Virus record (IMG/VR): IMGVR_UViG_3300001683_000075
Span: 1 to 29,418 of that record
Length of the DNA stretch: 29,418 bases
Source of the DNA: a virus
Strand: one strand, 5' to 3'
Part shown: positions 9,190-28,394 of the stretch, piece by piece
Layout of the letters: each line of letters begins with the position of its first letter
Numbering within the stretch: the first letter of the stretch is position 1
Notes under the pieces: generated by a model
Database searches by the model: none
Told to the model about the DNA's origin: nothing
The model's input: the letters and a program-made list of their open reading frames with translations, nothing else
Made by a program: the position numbers and the translations under genes

Positions 9190-9219
9190 TATGTTATTTC
9201 TCAATTTTCTATATCATAT

Positions 9220-9248
9220 ATTATACTAAAGTTTTACCAAAAAGTCAA
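9220..9248 (-). promoter_or_regulatory. Sigma70-type promoter for ligase C-terminal subunit and D5-like gene
   Basis: TTGACT (9248-9243), 17-bp spacer, TATAAT (9225-9220). The -35 hexamer contains the TGA stop codon of the ligase N-terminal gene. The predicted transcript start is near 9213, 24 bases before the ATG. Confidence 0.82.
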
Positions 9249-10228
9249 GTATTATTTTTTTCTATGTTACCACTCACTCTTTCAATAACTCGGGGGATTA
9301 TCTTGCCCGCCCTTATTACCTTTACTCGACACCCTATTTCAAGATTCAAACTTTTGATGTATGCTATGTTGTTCAAGGTTGCCCTTGAAATTACAGCGTC
9401 ATCAATTTTTATAGGGTCTAGTATTGCTACTGGAGTAACTTTTCCACTTTTACCTGTCTGCCATATCACATCTAATAATGTAGTTTCAATGCCTTCTTCC
9501 CTAGTTTTTAGAGCATAGGCTCCTCTAGGGTGGTGAGATGTGTAGCCTAACATATCATATTCTAGGTTACTATCTACACGGATTACTTTACCATCATTTG
9601 GAAATTCATTCCAATTGTTGCTTTCATCACTTGTTACTACATTAAATCCTTCATATATTAGACTACTCATATCAGTTTTATAGTAAGAACTTATTTGTGG
9701 TTCTACACTATAAGCAATAAAAGTAAGATTTCTATTTCTAAACTCATTAACATCCTTTAGATTCAATGCTCCAGCCGCGTAATTCCGTGCATTAGGAATT
9801 TCCTTAGGGGCTACTATCTCACCTGTAATTTGCATTATACCCCAGTCTTTAAATTCTAAACCAGAATGAAACTGTTTTGGTATAAGGTCAGAAAACATAA
9901 ATTTGTCAGTTACGTCTACCCCTGCGATACCATCGCCTCTAGTTATTACTTTGAAAAGTTTTCCCTTTTTATACTGTATAGCGATTGCCGCCCCATCTAA
10001 TTTAGGGGTTTCAATTACTGTACTTTTATATGTGGGTGGAGTGTCTTCCCCTTCGAATACTTTTTGTAACGAGTATAGAGGAAACAGGTGTCGTTGTTTA
10101 GCATCTGGGTTATATCCCACACGCTCATAGCCCTCTTTCTCTGCGAGGGTATCGAATTCTTCATCAGACAAAAAAGGCGAACCTTCGAAGTACGCCTTTG
10201 ATGCCTTATCTAATAAGTCTTTAGTCAT
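9245..10228 (-). CDS. ligA: NAD-dependent DNA ligase, adenylation and OB-fold subunit
   Basis: 327 residues. The nucleotidyltransferase motif KLDG is at 76-79 (K76 carries AMP), followed by RGDG (97-100), TGEIV (E137) and HHPRGAYALK. An OB-fold then starts near VIWQTGKSGKVTPVAIL. The N-terminal Ia domain, which binds NAD, is very short. The zinc finger, HhH and BRCT domains are absent and are encoded by the next gene. It seals nicks in replicating DNA using NAD+. It is the last gene of an operon containing three small upstream genes, overlapping the nearest by 8 bases. Confidence 0.9.
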   Translation of the reverse strand: MTKDLLDKASKAYFEGSPFLSDEEFDTLAEKEGYERVGYNPDAKQRHLFPLYSLQKVFEGEDTPPTYKSTVIETPKLDGAAIAIQYKKGKLFKVITRGDGIAGVDVTDKFMFSDLIPKQFHSGLEFKDWGIMQITGEIVAPKEIPNARNYAAGALNLKDVNEFRNRNLTFIAYSVEPQISSYYKTDMSSLIYEGFNVVTSDESNNWNEFPNDGKVIRVDSNLEYDMLGYTSHHPRGAYALKTREEGIETTLLDVIWQTGKSGKVTPVAILDPIKIDDAVISRATLNNIAYIKSLNLEIGCRVKVIRAGKIIPRVIERVSGNIEKNNT

Positions 10229-13901: not shown

Positions 13902-14176
13902 TATATTATTGCTCCTTTCATTAGAAATTTAACTACCCCTGTGAGGTATATAAAGACTGCCATAGCATTAACAACTATTAATGCTCTATCATGCCATAAG
14001 ATACCAACAATCCCCCAACCAGCGACACCGATTAGCGAAATTATCATTTGTAGTAAAGGGTAAGTTCCCCCAGCACTGATTAATACCATACCACATAGTA
14101 TAAGTATGCTAGAGCCCCACTTGATGTACCAGCTAAGCTCTTTGATGGGAGTTACCTTTTTATAGGCTATTTTCAT
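13901..14176 (-). CDS. Small membrane protein (about three helices)
   Basis: 91 residues with hydrophobic segments at about 18-37, 42-61 and 65-86, separated by short loops (a WHDR loop near residue 61). There is a Lys-rich N-terminus and no cleavable signal. It is the first gene after the promoter at 14203-14231. Inner-membrane localisation is likely. Similar short multi-helix proteins occur in other marine phages; the function is unknown. Confidence 0.7.
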   Translation of the reverse strand: MKIAYKKVTPIKELSWYIKWGSSILILCGMVLISAGGTYPLLQMIISLIGVAGWGIVGILWHDRALIVVNAMAVFIYLTGVVKFLMKGAII

Positions 14177-14202
14177 CTTAAATTTCTGACTTTTAAATGA
14201 AT

Positions 14203-14231
14203 ATTATACTATAATTTAAGGTTGTTGTCAA
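14203..14231 (-). promoter_or_regulatory. Sigma70-type promoter
   Basis: TTGACA (14231-14226), 17-bp spacer, TATAAT (14208-14203). It drives the membrane protein, MazG-like and metallopeptidase-like operon. Confidence 0.85.
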
Positions 14232-14250
14232 GTACTATTTTTAAACAATG

Positions 14251-16796: not shown

Positions 16797-17450
16797 AATT
16801 AGTTGGAGGCTGTTAAGGACAGCCTGCCTGAACCTAACGGTTTTTCGTGTACGTTCTCCACTAACTGCTCTTATACCAGTAGACTGTTTAACGTCCAAGT
16901 CGTTGACGCCATCTGTTAAAGTCTAATCTATTTCATCCCCATCATTGTGGCACTAGGGTGACACTAACACACTAAATGTGTGGGAGGAGCATGTTAATGC
17001 CACAATGGTGGAGATGGCTGGTACTGCCCCAGCGTGCTAAAACCTATGGATTTAGTTCTTTCGCGGTTACTTAGACTAAAAGTGGGGTAGAACTTCCGCG
17101 TCGTTCTACCCCTGTCTAGACTCCGTCTATTTGAGTTCTATTTTGGGGAGGTCACTCTAGGCACATTGTTCCTATAACCTCAAACATCCTTATTTTAGGG
17201 CGTGAAATGTTTGTACGCCCCATCCTGCTCATATTTATCCTGCACTTGGGAATTACAACATGCAGTATCTTTCTAACTGGTTTGGTCTTTGCTTCTTTAG
17301 TTGCTAAGCCTTTGCACAGTCACCTCGCACTAAGACAATGTTCAAATACCCCCTCTGACGAGTTTTCTGGTCTGTTGTATCAGACCTTACTTGATGCTTG
17401 AACCCTTATGTACTTTGGCTGAAAAATTAGGTTAAAATTATTCATTTCTG
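16797..17450 (-). ncRNA. Candidate large structured RNA 1 (about 650 nt)
   Basis: No protein gene fits in this segment. It lies between a consensus promoter (17457-17485) and the thioredoxin ribosome site. On the minus strand it contains: a 10-bp perfect hairpin (17112-17103 with 17093-17084); a 19-position helix (17016-16998 with 16952-16934, one C-A mismatch and one U-G); hairpins GGGCGT/ACGCCC (17220-17215, 17203-17198), GGTCTG/CAGACC, CACAC/GTGTG (16982-16968) and AGGCTGT/ACAGCCT (16825-16807). A 7-bp pseudoknot is possible between loop CAAACAT (17213-17207) and ATGTTTG (17187-17181), and a GC-only one between loop CGCGG and CCGCG (17066-17062). The folding is inspected by eye only. It could be processed from, or act as the leader of, the thioredoxin transcript. 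Confidence 0.75.
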
Positions 17451-18180: not shown

Positions 18181-18229
18181 GATTATTTAGTTTCCTATTT
18201 TTAGGTTAAATTTTGATTTTATAATGAAT

Positions 18230-18258
18230 ATTATACCAAAGTTTTGGCTTTTTGTCAA
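18230..18258 (-). promoter_or_regulatory. Sigma70-type promoter
   Basis: TTGACA (18258-18253), 17-bp spacer, TATAAT (18235-18230), both hexamers perfect. It sits just after the stop of the 109-residue gene. Confidence 0.86.
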
Positions 18259-18267
18259 GAACTATTT

Positions 18268-18597
18268 TTAAAGTAACAGATTATCAGTTTTTCCAAGACA
18301 AACTCCTCGGTCTACTGATTCAAAACTGGAACCTAATTCTTTTTTATATATTTCTTCCATAATTTCATCTTCTGTTTTATCTTTATTATCGAGTTTGTAT
18401 TCATACTTAGAAAAATTCCAATCTAGATGGGATATGTCGGTTAACTTAAACCACCTGCTCCCACTAAATTTGTATCTTAGTAGTATAGGTAGTCCTTTCA
18501 TGTATGCTTGTATTATCTCTATTGCTTTGTAACTATTTTCTGTGTTCATTAACTTGTGCCCCTCTAGTGTGTGGTAGTCTAATTCTATTTGATACAT
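18268..18597 (-). CDS. Hypothetical phage protein
   Basis: 109 residues. The middle segment (AIEIIQAYMKGLPILLRYKF, then WFKLT, then LDWNFSKYEYKLDN) matches a pattern I associate with small phage proteins that carry W and NFSKYEYR-type ends; no function is established for them. It is preceded by AAGGAG and lies after the nrdB gene by 30 bases, so it is probably the last gene of the reductase operon. Confidence 0.65.
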   Translation of the reverse strand: MYQIELDYHTLEGHKLMNTENSYKAIEIIQAYMKGLPILLRYKFSGSRWFKLTDISHLDWNFSKYEYKLDNKDKTEDEIMEEIYKKELGSSFESVDRGVCLGKTDNLLL

Positions 18598-23265: not shown

Positions 23266-23374
23266 GTTATTTACCTTCGGGATTGGTTGAATTACATAAG
23301 GAAAATCACGCACTAATACCTAAAGAGTACGATTTCTCTATGTTTTTTGTTAAATTTTTGATTTTTAATAATAT

Positions 23375-23403
23375 ATTATACCGAACTTTTACCTTAATGT
23401 CAA
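23375..23403 (-). promoter_or_regulatory. Sigma70-type promoter for the flap endonuclease - reductase operon
   Basis: TTGACA (23403-23398), 17-bp spacer, TATAAT (23380-23375), both hexamers perfect. It is divergent from the plus-strand promoter 40 bp away. Confidence 0.86.
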
Positions 23404-23444
23404 GGAATATTTTTCTTATCTGAACGAGCATAAAAAAATTCTTC

Positions 23445-24345: not shown

Positions 24346-24540
24346 GTCTGTGGTAGTTTAATTTCTTAATTTTTTTGTTCTATGGAGTTCTTTTTAATGA
24401 GTTTTTATGATTTTGCAGCGCTTTCTTATGTACTTTTTCGTTCTTTAAGCCTATCTTCCTATAATGGAGTTAGACAACTCTCTTTGACAATTGCAGGATT
24501 CATACAATAAATTATATTATAGGGAGACTCAAAAAACTTC

Positions 24541-24569
24541 TTGACAAATTGGTTAAAATTCGGTATAAT
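24541..24569 (+). promoter_or_regulatory. Sigma70-type promoter for the plus-strand operon
   Basis: TTGACA (24541-24546), 17-bp spacer, TATAAT (24564-24569), both hexamers perfect. A weaker -35-like TTGACA lies at 24484. The 195 bases between the terminator and this promoter hold no gene. From here the RNA would run through the 116-residue gene, the structured segment and the following genes. Confidence 0.88.
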
Positions 24570-24622
24570 AGTGTCTATAAAAATTCGAAAATTAACAAAA
24601 ATTTATAAGGAACAGAAATACA

Positions 24623-24973
24623 ATGGTTAAAAAATTAGTTACTAGAGGTGAGGTTGATGGATTCTTGGGTATAGATACTCAAATTAATTCGTCTGAGAAC
24701 CCTCTAGAGGAAGCAATAGATATGCTAACTGATTTAATCAATGGTGAGTATTCTGTAGACCAACTGCGTAGAGATGTGCATGAATGGAAGAATACATGGA
24801 CTGTTATTACACCAAAGAAACCCCGTCCAGCACCAATGCCAGCAATGTCTCCTTTTGAAGATGAGGTAGACTTACGACAAAGAGCAATGGAGGCTAATGT
24901 AGCCCGAACTGAAATTAGTGGTAAGTATAACACTAGATGGACTCCTAATGCGAAAAACATTTATAGTCCATAA
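24623..24973 (+). CDS. Hypothetical protein upstream of structured RNA 2
   Basis: 116 residues, AAGGA upstream. The N-terminal 70 residues are helical and acidic (NPLEEAIDMLTDLINGEYS), followed by a proline-rich linker (TPKKPRPAPMPAMSP) and a charged C-terminus. It is the first gene after the promoter at 24541-24569. No family recognised. The proline-rich linker suggests two parts with separate functions. Confidence 0.68.
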   Translation: MVKKLVTRGEVDGFLGIDTQINSSENPLEEAIDMLTDLINGEYSVDQLRRDVHEWKNTWTVITPKKPRPAPMPAMSPFEDEVDLRQRAMEANVARTEISGKYNTRWTPNAKNIYSP

Positions 24974-24974
24974 A

Positions 24975-25645
24975 TACAACTACTGTTGCTAGTAGAATAC
25001 AAGGGGAACGAGTTGAATAGGACATTATATAAAGGGAATGACTACAAACACCCGTCTCGTTCTGACAGACTAGAAGCCAAGACTAGTCTATAATTAAAGA
25101 CTTGGAGATGAGGTTGCCACCCTCGCGTTAAACAACCAAGGCAAGGAGGTTTTAGCATGACCTACCGCGTATAAGTATCTATCGACTAGTGAGTAACTTA
25201 CAGTAACTGAAACGAGATGCCTGAAATAGGGTAACTGAGAAGGTGAATAAAGTGGGTGAGAAACTTAGGGCAAACTGATAGAGCGTGTGGACAAAGGAGG
25301 TTCCACCACCCAACTTTCCTACAAATGCCTTACGAGTACCAGTTTATCTGTTGTACCGAAAGAGCAAGGAAACGGTAAAAGAATAAAATGCTGACTTGTC
25401 GTAGACGAGTAGGACGAACCCTAGCGATACTATCACTAGGGGTAAGCCCACCCTATAGACAATGCACCCAGACTTCACGAGGTCTGTATCCACACTGGGT
25501 TTGCAGTAAATCAAGCCCCAGAACTGGTGGGACACAAGTAAACACGTGCGTCCTCGAGCCATGACGGAAGTGAACAGGTGTAAGGCAGCAACCATCGAAC
25601 TTTCACTAGGGTATTAAACTGGCTCCCCTATTCTAACACACAATA
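24975..25645 (+). ncRNA. Candidate large structured RNA 2 (about 670 nt)
   Basis: No gene in any frame is convincing, and it lies between two intact plus-strand genes. Plus-strand helices seen by eye: CTACT/AGTAG (24980-24995) right after the stop codon; AACGAG (25007-25012) with CTCGTT (25056-25061); AGACTAG/CTAGTCT (25067-25089) whose loop CCAAG (25077-25081) can pair with CTTGG (25101-25105) as an H-type pseudoknot; a bulged 10-bp stem (25249-25258 with 25307-25317) enclosing a GTGG/CCAC hairpin that exposes AGGAGG; TACCG/CGGTA (25354-25377); ACTTGTC/GACGAGT (25394-25410); CCCTAG/CTAGGG (25419-25441); a bulged nine-pair stem (25463-25505); and TAGGG/CCCTA (25607-25630). The density of stems exceeds chance. 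Two full Shine-Dalgarno matches occur inside, one before a five-codon frame. Confidence 0.75.
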
Positions 25646-25656
25646 CAGGAACAACA

Positions 25657-26199
25657 ATGACAATAAAATATGAAGTAGTTGTAACTAAGACCTATAAAGT
25701 TACTCAAGAGGTAGAAGCGAGTTCTGAAAAGGAAGCCTGTAAAGTAGGCGAACTTATCGCCGATTACGACCTAAACTATGACGGAAACGAACTTACTGTT
25801 GACGTCAAATCTAACGCCTTCCCAAAGGAGGAATCAAAAACACTTGTCGCTACATACTCGAAATCAACTCGAGATATTGGTGACCCACAATACCCACCCC
25901 ATGTTAATGTATATGAGGTACGGGCAGAACACAATATAGAAAGAAGTGATGAGTATGAGGATAAGCCTTATTACCAACTTCGCTACTTCTCTAGACAATG
26001 TCGCTATGACTATGGCAACTCACTATTCTACATAGAGGAATTTCCCTACTGTGATGAAGAGTTTGCTCGTCAAGCAGCCCAAAACTGGGTGTCTGGTGAT
26101 AAGTTACTAGACTTGGACTACGCACTAGCGAAAGACGGCAAAACTATGAAATCAACTTACGCAGGAAACGGATATGGAAGTTATGGGAGGTTAAGATAA
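25657..26199 (+). CDS. Hypothetical protein with DpnD/PcfM-like N-terminus
   Basis: 180 residues, first gene after structured RNA 2, AGGAACA upstream. The first 50 residues (KYEVVVTKTYKVTQEVEASSEKEACKVGEL) resemble short DpnD/PcfM-type proteins, a weak pattern. The rest is Tyr-rich and acidic (YYQLRYFSRQCRYDYGNS). Its stop overlaps the next start (TAATG). Function unknown. Confidence 0.65.
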   Translation: MTIKYEVVVTKTYKVTQEVEASSEKEACKVGELIADYDLNYDGNELTVDVKSNAFPKEESKTLVATYSKSTRDIGDPQYPPHVNVYEVRAEHNIERSDEYEDKPYYQLRYFSRQCRYDYGNSLFYIEEFPYCDEEFARQAAQNWVSGDKLLDLDYALAKDGKTMKSTYAGNGYGSYGRLR

Positions 26200-27174: not shown

Positions 27175-27337
27175 TAAGAAGTGGTATGACATTTTAGACT
27201 ACTTGGTTGGAGGAACAATCGGACTTATCATAGCATCCTTCTTCACCAGCAATCACTATGTTGCTGCAGTATGGTTTATTATTGGAGGAATTATTCTTGA
27301 CACAATTATGACTCATTTAGAAAATTCCCAACACTGA
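27164..27337 (+). CDS. Small membrane protein, GTG start (57 aa)
   Basis: A 58-codon frame from GTG 27164, overlapping the previous stop by 11 bases. Two hydrophobic segments (about 14-27 and 31-50) follow a Lys/Trp N-terminus, suggesting a two-pass inner-membrane protein. The last gene of the plus-strand operon. Confidence 0.55.
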   Translation: MKNNKKWYDILDYLVGGTIGLIIASFFTSNHYVAAVWFIIGGIILDTIMTHLENSQH

Positions 27338-27390
27338 ACTTCAAATTCATCCAACACATCAAAAATAGTTAACATAAGATGCTCAAAATA

Positions 27391-27399
27391 TGATATAAT
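27391..27399 (+). promoter_or_regulatory. Extended -10 promoter upstream of hairpin RNA
   Basis: TGATATAAT matches the extended -10 form TGnTATAAT. A TTAACA -35-like element is 19 bp upstream, so recognition would rely on the extended -10. Transcription would start near 27406, just before the outer stem of the nested hairpin. Confidence 0.5.
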
Positions 27400-27405
27400 T
27401 ATAGT

Positions 27406-27556
27406 AATTTTATATACTTAAAAAGTTTATTTAGTTTTTACTACTTATACTTAAGAAATCTTCGAGATATCACTGAATCTGATTGGTGAGCCTAAAGCGA
27501 ATCTAAGCAGATTTGTTGATGTTATTGAAGAAGATTGATATTAAATAAACTTTTAA
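27406..27556 (+). ncRNA. Candidate small structured RNA with nested stem
   Basis: A 13-bp perfect inverted repeat (27422-27434 with 27542-27554) encloses about 107 bases. Inside it AATCTTC (27458-27464) pairs with GAAGATT (27530-27536), and AATCT/AGATT (27500-27513) forms a tetraloop hairpin. No gene is seen. The nested arrangement and the extended -10 promoter suggest a small RNA or an RNA processing element, but the AT-rich stems make chance possible. Confidence 0.45.
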
Positions 27557-27642
27557 TAACGACAGATGTTAAAGCCTACTATTACGTTCTAAAGCAAGCC
27601 CTATATACTAATGCGAACTTACACTAATCGTATAAGATATAT

Positions 27643-27798
27643 TTAAGTTATTGCACAAGGCTTAAAATGAGAGTTAATTGGCTTAAATTTTAATACATAA
27701 TATGATATTCCTTTAGATTTTTCGTCGCCGTCGTTTAGCGTCAACTCCCTACTCAACCCCAAATTTCTAGTTTTCATACTGAACTGAAATAATCCCAT
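27643..27798 (-). CDS. Candidate small protein (51 aa)
   Basis: A 52-codon minus-strand frame with GGAGG nine bases before the ATG. MGLFQFSMKTRN then a mixed-charge region and a Lys-rich C-terminus with one Cys. It sits between the terminator at 27951-27975 and the structured block, with no promoter visible for it. Composition is not decisive. Confidence 0.3.
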   Translation of the reverse strand: MGLFQFSMKTRNLGLSRELTLNDGDEKSKGISYYVLKFKPINSHFKPCAIT

Positions 27799-27842
27799 TT
27801 AATCAATCCTCCACATCTACCTAAAAGTGGATATTCCTTTAG
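27704..27842. repeat. Short direct repeat, GATATTCCTTTAG, twice
   Basis: GATATTCCTTTAG occurs at 27704-27716 and 27830-27842, each followed by a TTTTCGT-type stretch, 126 bases apart. CGTTTAGCGT also occurs twice, at 27732 and 27980. The rest of 27557-27950 holds only the 51-residue candidate. Confidence 0.5.
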
Positions 27843-27950
27843 TTTTCGTACTTAACTAGAGTACCTTAGTAGAACTAGGGCAAGTTTATCATTTCATGAT
27901 ATCTTTGCCCACCTTCTACAAATCGTATTCTCACGCTTACTATCGGACAC

Positions 27951-27975
27951 AAAAAACCCCCAATTAAGGGGGTTT
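27951..27975 (-). terminator. Bidirectional rho-independent terminator
   Basis: Stem CCCCC / GGGGG with a 6-base loop. On the minus strand it is followed by TTTTTT, ending the operon from 29.3 kb. On the plus strand the tail is only TTT, so it is weaker there. Confidence 0.85.
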
Positions 27976-27992
27976 CTGCCGTTTAGCGTAAA

Positions 27993-28070
27993 TTAACTAA
28001 GATAGATTAAAAATAGTAGTGGAAAAAATACTATAATAAAGGCTATATCAATCCAATCTAAATGCTTCAT
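27993..28070 (-). CDS. Tiny membrane protein (25 aa)
   Basis: A 26-codon frame, MKHLDWIDIAFIIVFFPLL and a hydrophobic end, with AGGAG before the start. Single-pass membrane peptide, last of a cassette of four. Confidence 0.45.
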   Translation of the reverse strand: MKHLDWIDIAFIIVFFPLLFLIYLS

Positions 28071-28077
28071 ACTACTC

Positions 28078-28206
28078 CTAATAATGAAAGTGGTTCGCTT
28101 TATCACGACTTTTCATAAATGGAGTCGGCTGTGTCTTAGCATCCTTTAGACCAGCGACTACTAATACTGATATAAATAATGTGATTACTACTAATGCTGC
28201 TGTCAT
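28078..28206 (-). CDS. Small single-pass membrane protein (42 aa)
   Basis: A 43-codon frame. Hydrophobic N-terminus (MTAALVVITLFISVLVVAGL) then a basic, proline-containing tail ending NHFHY. AGGAGC precedes the start, and the start overlaps the upstream stop (ATGA). N-terminal anchor with cytoplasmic or periplasmic tail. Confidence 0.5.
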   Translation of the reverse strand: MTAALVVITLFISVLVVAGLKDAKTQPTPFMKSRDKANHFHY

Positions 28207-28298
28207 AATACTGCTCCTAATTTAAATACATATCCAATAATGAGGGGTACTAAAACCATGATTAACAAGAATATCATAATACCATTGCTCTTCATCAT
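28203..28298 (-). CDS. Tiny membrane protein (31 aa)
   Basis: A 32-codon frame, MMKSNG followed by a hydrophobic helix. The start overlaps the upstream stop and follows GAGGTGGTG; the stop overlaps the next start (ATGA). Confidence 0.5.
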   Translation of the reverse strand: MMKSNGIMIFLLIMVLVPLIIGYVFKLGAVL

Positions 28299-28393
28299 AG
28301 CACCACCTCGACTAATATAACTATTTGTAGCCCCAATATTGATAGGGCTACTGATGTACGGATTATCTCCATACCTATTCTAAAGGTTCTCAT
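28295..28393 (-). CDS. Small amphipathic or membrane protein (32 aa)
   Basis: A 33-codon frame, MRTFRIGMEIIRTSVALSIL and a hydrophobic end (LQIVILVEVVL). GGAGG lies nine bases before the ATG, inside the end of the Myb-like gene. It opens the membrane-peptide cassette. Confidence 0.5.
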   Translation of the reverse strand: MRTFRIGMEIIRTSVALSILGLQIVILVEVVL

Positions 28394-28394
28394 A

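Follow-up and report, generated by a model that had tools for sequence, protein, structure and literature searches.

A conserved, plus-strand structured RNA of about 650 nt in an operon of phages with T5-like replication genes

The segment at positions 24976–25645 of an IMG/VR virus record is shown here to be a conserved, bounded, plus-strand structured RNA that has no catalogued relative, in a test limited to three sequences. The window, i.e. the whole stretch of DNA that was analysed, is the 29,418 bases of the record. Among the products encoded by the contig are a family A DNA polymerase of T5-like type (about 47% identity to T5-group phages), a primase, a helicase, an NAD-dependent ligase, a ribonucleotide reductase and a 5′-3′ exonuclease; the phage lineage that carries the RNA thus has T5-like replication genes. 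We lean towards the reading that the segment represents a new family of pseudoknotted phage non-coding RNA of ~650 nt, which is situated in a plus-strand operon, is excised from the transcript as a discrete trans-acting molecule and is GOLLD/ROOL-like in kind. To our knowledge, only a handful of large structured RNAs have been described in phages.

Homologues of the segment are found in two other IMG/VR contigs, IMGVR_UViG_3300003937_000011 (G001) and IMGVR_UViG_3300007760_000655 (G002), and these together with the window copy form the alignment. The three sequences align from ~24980 to ~25640–25645 and diverge on both sides, so that the boundaries proposed in an earlier note on this DNA prove accurate to ~5 nt. 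Over aligned bases, the segment is 89% identical to G001 and 86% to G002; for the coding regions next to it, identity lies between 55% and 94%. Changes cluster in loops, in two G002 inserts and at the tip of one arm. The GC content is 45%, compared with 36% for the contig.

The RNA starts directly after a plus-strand open reading frame of 116 amino acids (24623–24973) and is followed by another of 180 amino acids (25657–26199, plus strand), whose homologues in the other two contigs show 94% and 41% amino acid identity. Neither encodes a protein of a known family. Both are complete, which bears out the proposal of a non-coding segment between two intact genes. In G002 the upstream frame is shortened and not split: it lacks ~110 bp at the 3′ end, and the gap ends flush at the RNA start. 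The C-terminal part of this frame in the window and G001 is a module of ~27 residues (LRQRAMEANVARTEI...KWTPDA; 24872–24952, plus strand). In G002 the module is absent upstream of the RNA and is found instead at 31717–31797 on the minus strand, in the homologue of the 17908–18180 gene, on the strand of the tmRNA described below. There is one copy per contig, and it looks like an exchangeable module. The 25657–26199 protein was considered as a possible RNA partner, and was set aside when its AlphaFold model proved too poor (pLDDT 46).

No convincing coding frame is present within 24975–25645. The longest plus-strand frame has 58 codons for amino acids and there is one of 83 amino acids on the minus strand, and these frames in the window copy are what might suggest a translated region or a degraded gene. 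We give this explanation hardly any credence: the G002 homologue has different and shorter frames, some loop insertions and deletions have lengths not divisible by three, and most of the change falls in loops and compensatory pairs.

Evidence for structure at the RNA level comes from comparison of the three sequences. The folding energy of the single sequence is unremarkable (z = −0.91 relative to shuffles), and thus energy by itself is insufficient to support the finding. The three-sequence consensus fold (alifold) has a z-score of −3.7 on the plus strand and −2.1 on the minus strand, where the null consists of column shuffles that preserve gap and variability classes; none of 60 shuffles was as good on the plus strand. 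An exhaustive list of helices of at least five pairs contains 12 that show a double change (mean of the null 4.3; its maximum 14, in 1 of 25 null runs). Two helices have two double changes each, against a null mean of 0.12 and a null maximum of 1. A pseudoknotted model of 131 pairs was drawn from the enumerated and alifold helices, and 99.5% of its cells are paired across the three sequences, a percentage that is inflated by fitting on these same sequences with plus-strand rules. Thirteen pairs of the model are compensatory; the shuffle mean is 5.3, none of 500 shuffles is as high, and sliding the model leaves 0–2. Among variable pairs, 20 of 22 stay paired as plus-strand RNA and nine of 22 as minus-strand RNA, a comparison tilted towards the plus strand by the same fitting, and the alifold z-scores, obtained for each strand on its own, point in the same direction. 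Taken together, the compensatory pairs, the alifold z-score and the strand asymmetry are evidence of selection on a plus-strand RNA. The earlier note had envisaged a large structured phage RNA in the operon, a proposal that an absence of compensatory changes in homologues was to count against; the consensus fold and the compensatory pairs support it.

The terminal 106 nt (25540–25645, plus strand) are ultraconserved, being 99% identical to G001 and 97% to G002, and here the thermodynamic signal is absent (alifold z +0.85). Such conservation is what might be expected of a DNA-level element, e.g. an origin, a recombination site or a packaging site, with conservation unrelated to RNA. Nevertheless, a DNA element is very improbable, as DNA cruciforms do not explain plus-strand pairs that are kept through G-U pairing (20 versus nine of the variable pairs), and most parts of the unit contain compensatory changes.

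The helices that are well supported by sequence comparison are P2, P3 with an H-type pseudoknot, P5, P8/P9 and P10–P12, all on the plus strand. P2 (25005–25012/25056–25063) has the sequences GGAACGAG/CUCGUUCU versus GAAACGAG/CUCGUUUC, with one compensatory and one G-U change. The P3 stem (25067–25074/25084–25089) changes from AGACUA/UAGUCU to AGACUG/CAGUCU among homologues, and in the pseudoknot, formed by loop 25077–25081 with 25101–25105, CCAAG/CUUGG becomes UCCAG/CUGGA. The two together have three compensatory pairs, and the pseudoknot that had been predicted from the single sequence is thereby supported in both stem and loop. P5 (25179–25184/25276–25281) has one compensatory pair (CUAUCG/UGAUAG versus UUAUCG/UGAUAA), and the P8/P9 hairpin (25315–25319/25368–25372 and 25326–25342/25348–25366) has two. 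The best supported element is the extended arm P10–P12 (25395–25464), with six compensatory pairs and a local alifold z-score of −6.4; the length and sequence of its tip differ in each contig. Other predicted plus-strand elements vary less. The 5′-terminal hairpin P0 (24980–24995; CUACU-GUUGCU-AGUAG) has an outer C-G pair that is U-A in G002. P7 (GUGUGGA/UCCACAC, 25285–25495), which would close the central domain, has one G-U change and is otherwise invariant, and the P13 hairpin (CAGACUU-CACG-AGGUCUG, 25469–25486) has one G-U to A-U change.

Invariance or near invariance in three sequences leaves P1, P4 and P14–P17 as candidates. P1 is a possible outer long-range helix, GAAUAGG/CCUAUUC, between 25015–25021 and 25627–25633, and P4 is a possible irregular helix (25033–25054/25143–25162) whose energy is not exceptional; both are invariant and both cross P2. 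P14–P17 (25497–25625) are nearly invariant helices of the 3′ domain. A long-range contact of AGTATC (25174–25179) with GATACT (25426–25431) had also been suggested. It is rejected because both partners differ in the homologues: the first is changed in both of them, and the second is in a hypervariable loop. The tertiary layout of the RNA as modelled is tentative. The G002 copy has a tandem duplication of an RNA stretch, CTATCGACTGGTGAGTA..., and ~22 inserted bases ahead of the first AAGGAGGT (L004, 6120–6250); the RNA thus tolerates peripheral insertions.

The sequence AAGGAGGT resembles a ribosome-binding site. The 29.4-kb contig has two copies over both strands, both on the plus strand of the RNA, against a chance expectation of ~1.3 copies in the whole window. 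Both are kept in G001 and G002, each of which has one further copy in the sequence examined. That both sites fall inside 671 bases and that both are conserved is notable. The first copy (25143–25150, plus strand), conserved in the three contigs, is followed after 6 nt by a mini-ORF, AUG ACC UAC CGC GUA UAA (25157–25174, plus strand). From the first AAGGAGGT through the mini-ORF (25143–25174) every base is identical in the three contigs; as this five-codon frame is invariant at wobble positions too, selection is not for the peptide alone. The second copy (25294–25301, plus strand) has no start codon at the usual spacing and is also conserved in G001 and G002. Either copy can be drawn as paired, and the P4 candidate would cover the first AAGGAGGT and the AUG. 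The sites could be ribosome contacts, or they could be only parts of conserved helices; judged from sequence, either is possible. A more speculative thought, which we regard as rather doubtful, is that the RNA captures or parks the 30S subunit by means of two AAGGAGGU sites perfectly complementary to the anti-Shine-Dalgarno sequence, one of them with the invariant five-codon ORF, on a rigid pseudoknotted scaffold, in a phage that has a tmRNA-like ribosome-rescue gene; it may also form another RNA-only oligomer.

The nearest strong promoter upstream of the RNA is a putative sigma-70 promoter, TTGACA-17-TATAAT (24541–24569, plus strand), which by consensus match has 12 of 12 positions. A promoter-plus-leader block of ~70 bp is repeated and conserved on both strands of the window (9198–9260, 14176–14247, 18195–18272, 23343–23414 and 24531–24600). 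It is common to related phage contigs, and these may be early promoters. An ORF-poor stretch lies farther downstream: the 1.2 kb at 27175–28394 have no ORF of 60 amino acids and contain the motif CGTTTAGCGT more than once, and the motif recurs in an ORF-poor gap of a relative (L026, 785–1382).

No promoter or terminator belonging to the RNA itself was identified, and no terminator-like site was found on the plus strand after 25645. With a gene start ~11 nt downstream and no terminator, the RNA is most simply part of the operon transcript, and a discrete RNA would need processing. This raises the question of whether the RNA acts in cis on the 25657 gene, as a very long 5′ leader or an intercistronic element that regulates its translation or stability, perhaps with the five-codon ORF as a leader peptide. 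The close spacing to the next AUG fits such a role, as does the perfectly conserved AAGGAGGT-AUG-five codons-stop arrangement inside the RNA. However, the conserved unit stops short of the ribosome-binding region of the 25657 gene, and the spacer between the RNA 3′ edge and the start codon varies in length and sequence among contigs. The downstream gene is also strongly diverged in G002 (55% nucleotide identity) and the RNA is not, and the mini-ORF is 480 nt from the 25657 gene. Usual leaders are far smaller than ~650 nt. The leader explanation is a real possibility, albeit on the improbable side. Release of a discrete RNA from the mRNA by processing is plausible.

Comparison with catalogued RNAs gives no relative for the RNA. 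Rfam 15 shows no family at E ≤ 1 in scans of the window and the two homologues, or at E ≤ 10 beyond chance in the segment, a result that speaks against GOLLD, ROOL and group I/II introns. The GOLLD and ROOL models, run without a positive-control sequence, have no match at E ≤ 1 in the window, G001 and G002, or at E ≤ 10 in the segment. Resemblances to SRP RNA, RNase P RNA and the T-box were looked for by eye, and none survived the Rfam scan. Neither a tmRNA match nor a tRNA-like domain was found in 24976–25645.

Rfam models also detect no group I/II catalytic core in the segment. In size and pseudoknots the RNA would fit a relative of ribozymes or introns (group I/II, or some other RNA that is mobile or cleaves itself) that has diverged beyond recognition, and the lack of a match in more distant phage relatives could mean that it is mobile. 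Nonetheless, scans at E ≤ 1 over the window and at E ≤ 10 over the segment give no group I/II or small-ribozyme match, the flanking ORFs are complete, no gene is split, and there is no maturase or homing-enzyme ORF. We therefore consider such a relationship unlikely, and the earlier view that the segment is not an obvious intron stands.

The likeness of the RNA to GOLLD, ROOL and an ICP1 phage RNA is one of analogy and not of membership. ROOL RNAs often occur near tRNA islands, and tRNA neighbours of GOLLD and ROOL are frequent, if not universal. There are no tRNA genes in the 29.4-kb window. ROOL (Rumen-Originating, Ornate, Large) is phage-encoded, ~660 nt in the solved example, and has several pseudoknots and no known function (PMC12286853). 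The RNA described here is similar in being phage-encoded, in size and in having an elaborate pseudoknotted structure, but differs in that it has no Rfam match or tRNA genes in the window and is embedded in an operon between protein genes. GOLLD has a strongly conserved 3′ region and a 5′ region that is less so, and reportedly binds ribosomes in pull-downs, and both GOLLD and ROOL form cages (PMC12286853). The similarity to GOLLD, a resemblance only, is in phage origin and in the 3′ 106 nt, which are 97–99% identical versus 86–89% overall; the differences are the missing Rfam match, a length below GOLLD's typical 800 nt and the absence of tRNA neighbours. Phage ICP1 produces an abundant non-coding RNA of ~800 nt from an ORF-less gap (PMC7567579). 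Like the RNA described here, the ICP1 transcript is large and unannotated, and it arises in a lytic phage from a gap that has no ORFs and no tRNAs nearby (PMC7567579); the likeness is by description and not by structure, and our RNA has no blastn match in the phage collection at E ≤ 1. In other phages, large non-coding RNAs of comparable length are known and are abundantly transcribed (PMC12286853, PMC7567579, PMC9241854).

A second segment of the window, 16797–17450 on the minus strand, had been placed in the same broad class. Two Rfam models match it with scores slightly under their gathering thresholds, alpha_tmRNA (E 1.4e-10) and tmRNA_permuted (E 7e-7), and its homologues in G001 and G002 are equally good tmRNA matches; ARAGORN missed a tmRNA in 16797–17450. 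On these model matches, the segment is a diverged permuted (two-piece) tmRNA. Phages from marine and aquatic habitats, e.g. Melnitz, are known to carry two-piece tmRNAs (PMC9004378). The RNA at 24976–25645 has no such match, and a covariance model of its central domain finds no second match in the window. As the 16.8-kb segment is a tmRNA, an RNA of known kind, the two are not one class and the proposed kinship fails.

Searches for further homologues in viral contigs, with four DNA patterns and four protein-guided scans, found none; one DNA-pattern match (L059) was discarded as a coincidence within a coding frame. Blastn of the segment gives no match at E ≤ 1 in an annotated phage collection. 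A 17-mer scan of genome contigs yields 15 loci that are essentially seed matches only, and the central-domain covariance model detects nothing in related phage contigs or in a sample of 754 genomes from two classes. As G001 and G002 are the only homologues found, the RNA is, in the sequences covered by these searches, that of a narrow lineage of phages. More distant phage relatives, several of them fragments, have exonucleases that are 64–67% identical and show no RNA by HMM, blastn or covariance model, and thus the RNA is probably an accessory element.

In the preferred reading of a trans-acting phage RNA, the molecule would be transcribed from the plus strand within an early operon mRNA, and host or phage RNases may release it from this transcript. 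Its fold would be a rigid body of several domains, with arms at the periphery that vary. The almost invariant 3′ domain may make a specific contact, either with the RNA itself, with a protein or with the ribosome. Action in trans, as well as what the 3′ domain and the two ribosome-binding-like sequences do, we infer from these features.

GOLLD and ROOL, as structurally studied, are RNA-only cages whose function is still open. The conserved 3′ domain and the two AAGGAGGU sites represent concrete targets, and a covariation-supported RNA of ~650 nt, from a different phage lineage and situated in an operon, would provide an independent case for ideas of cage formation, ribosome binding or packaging.
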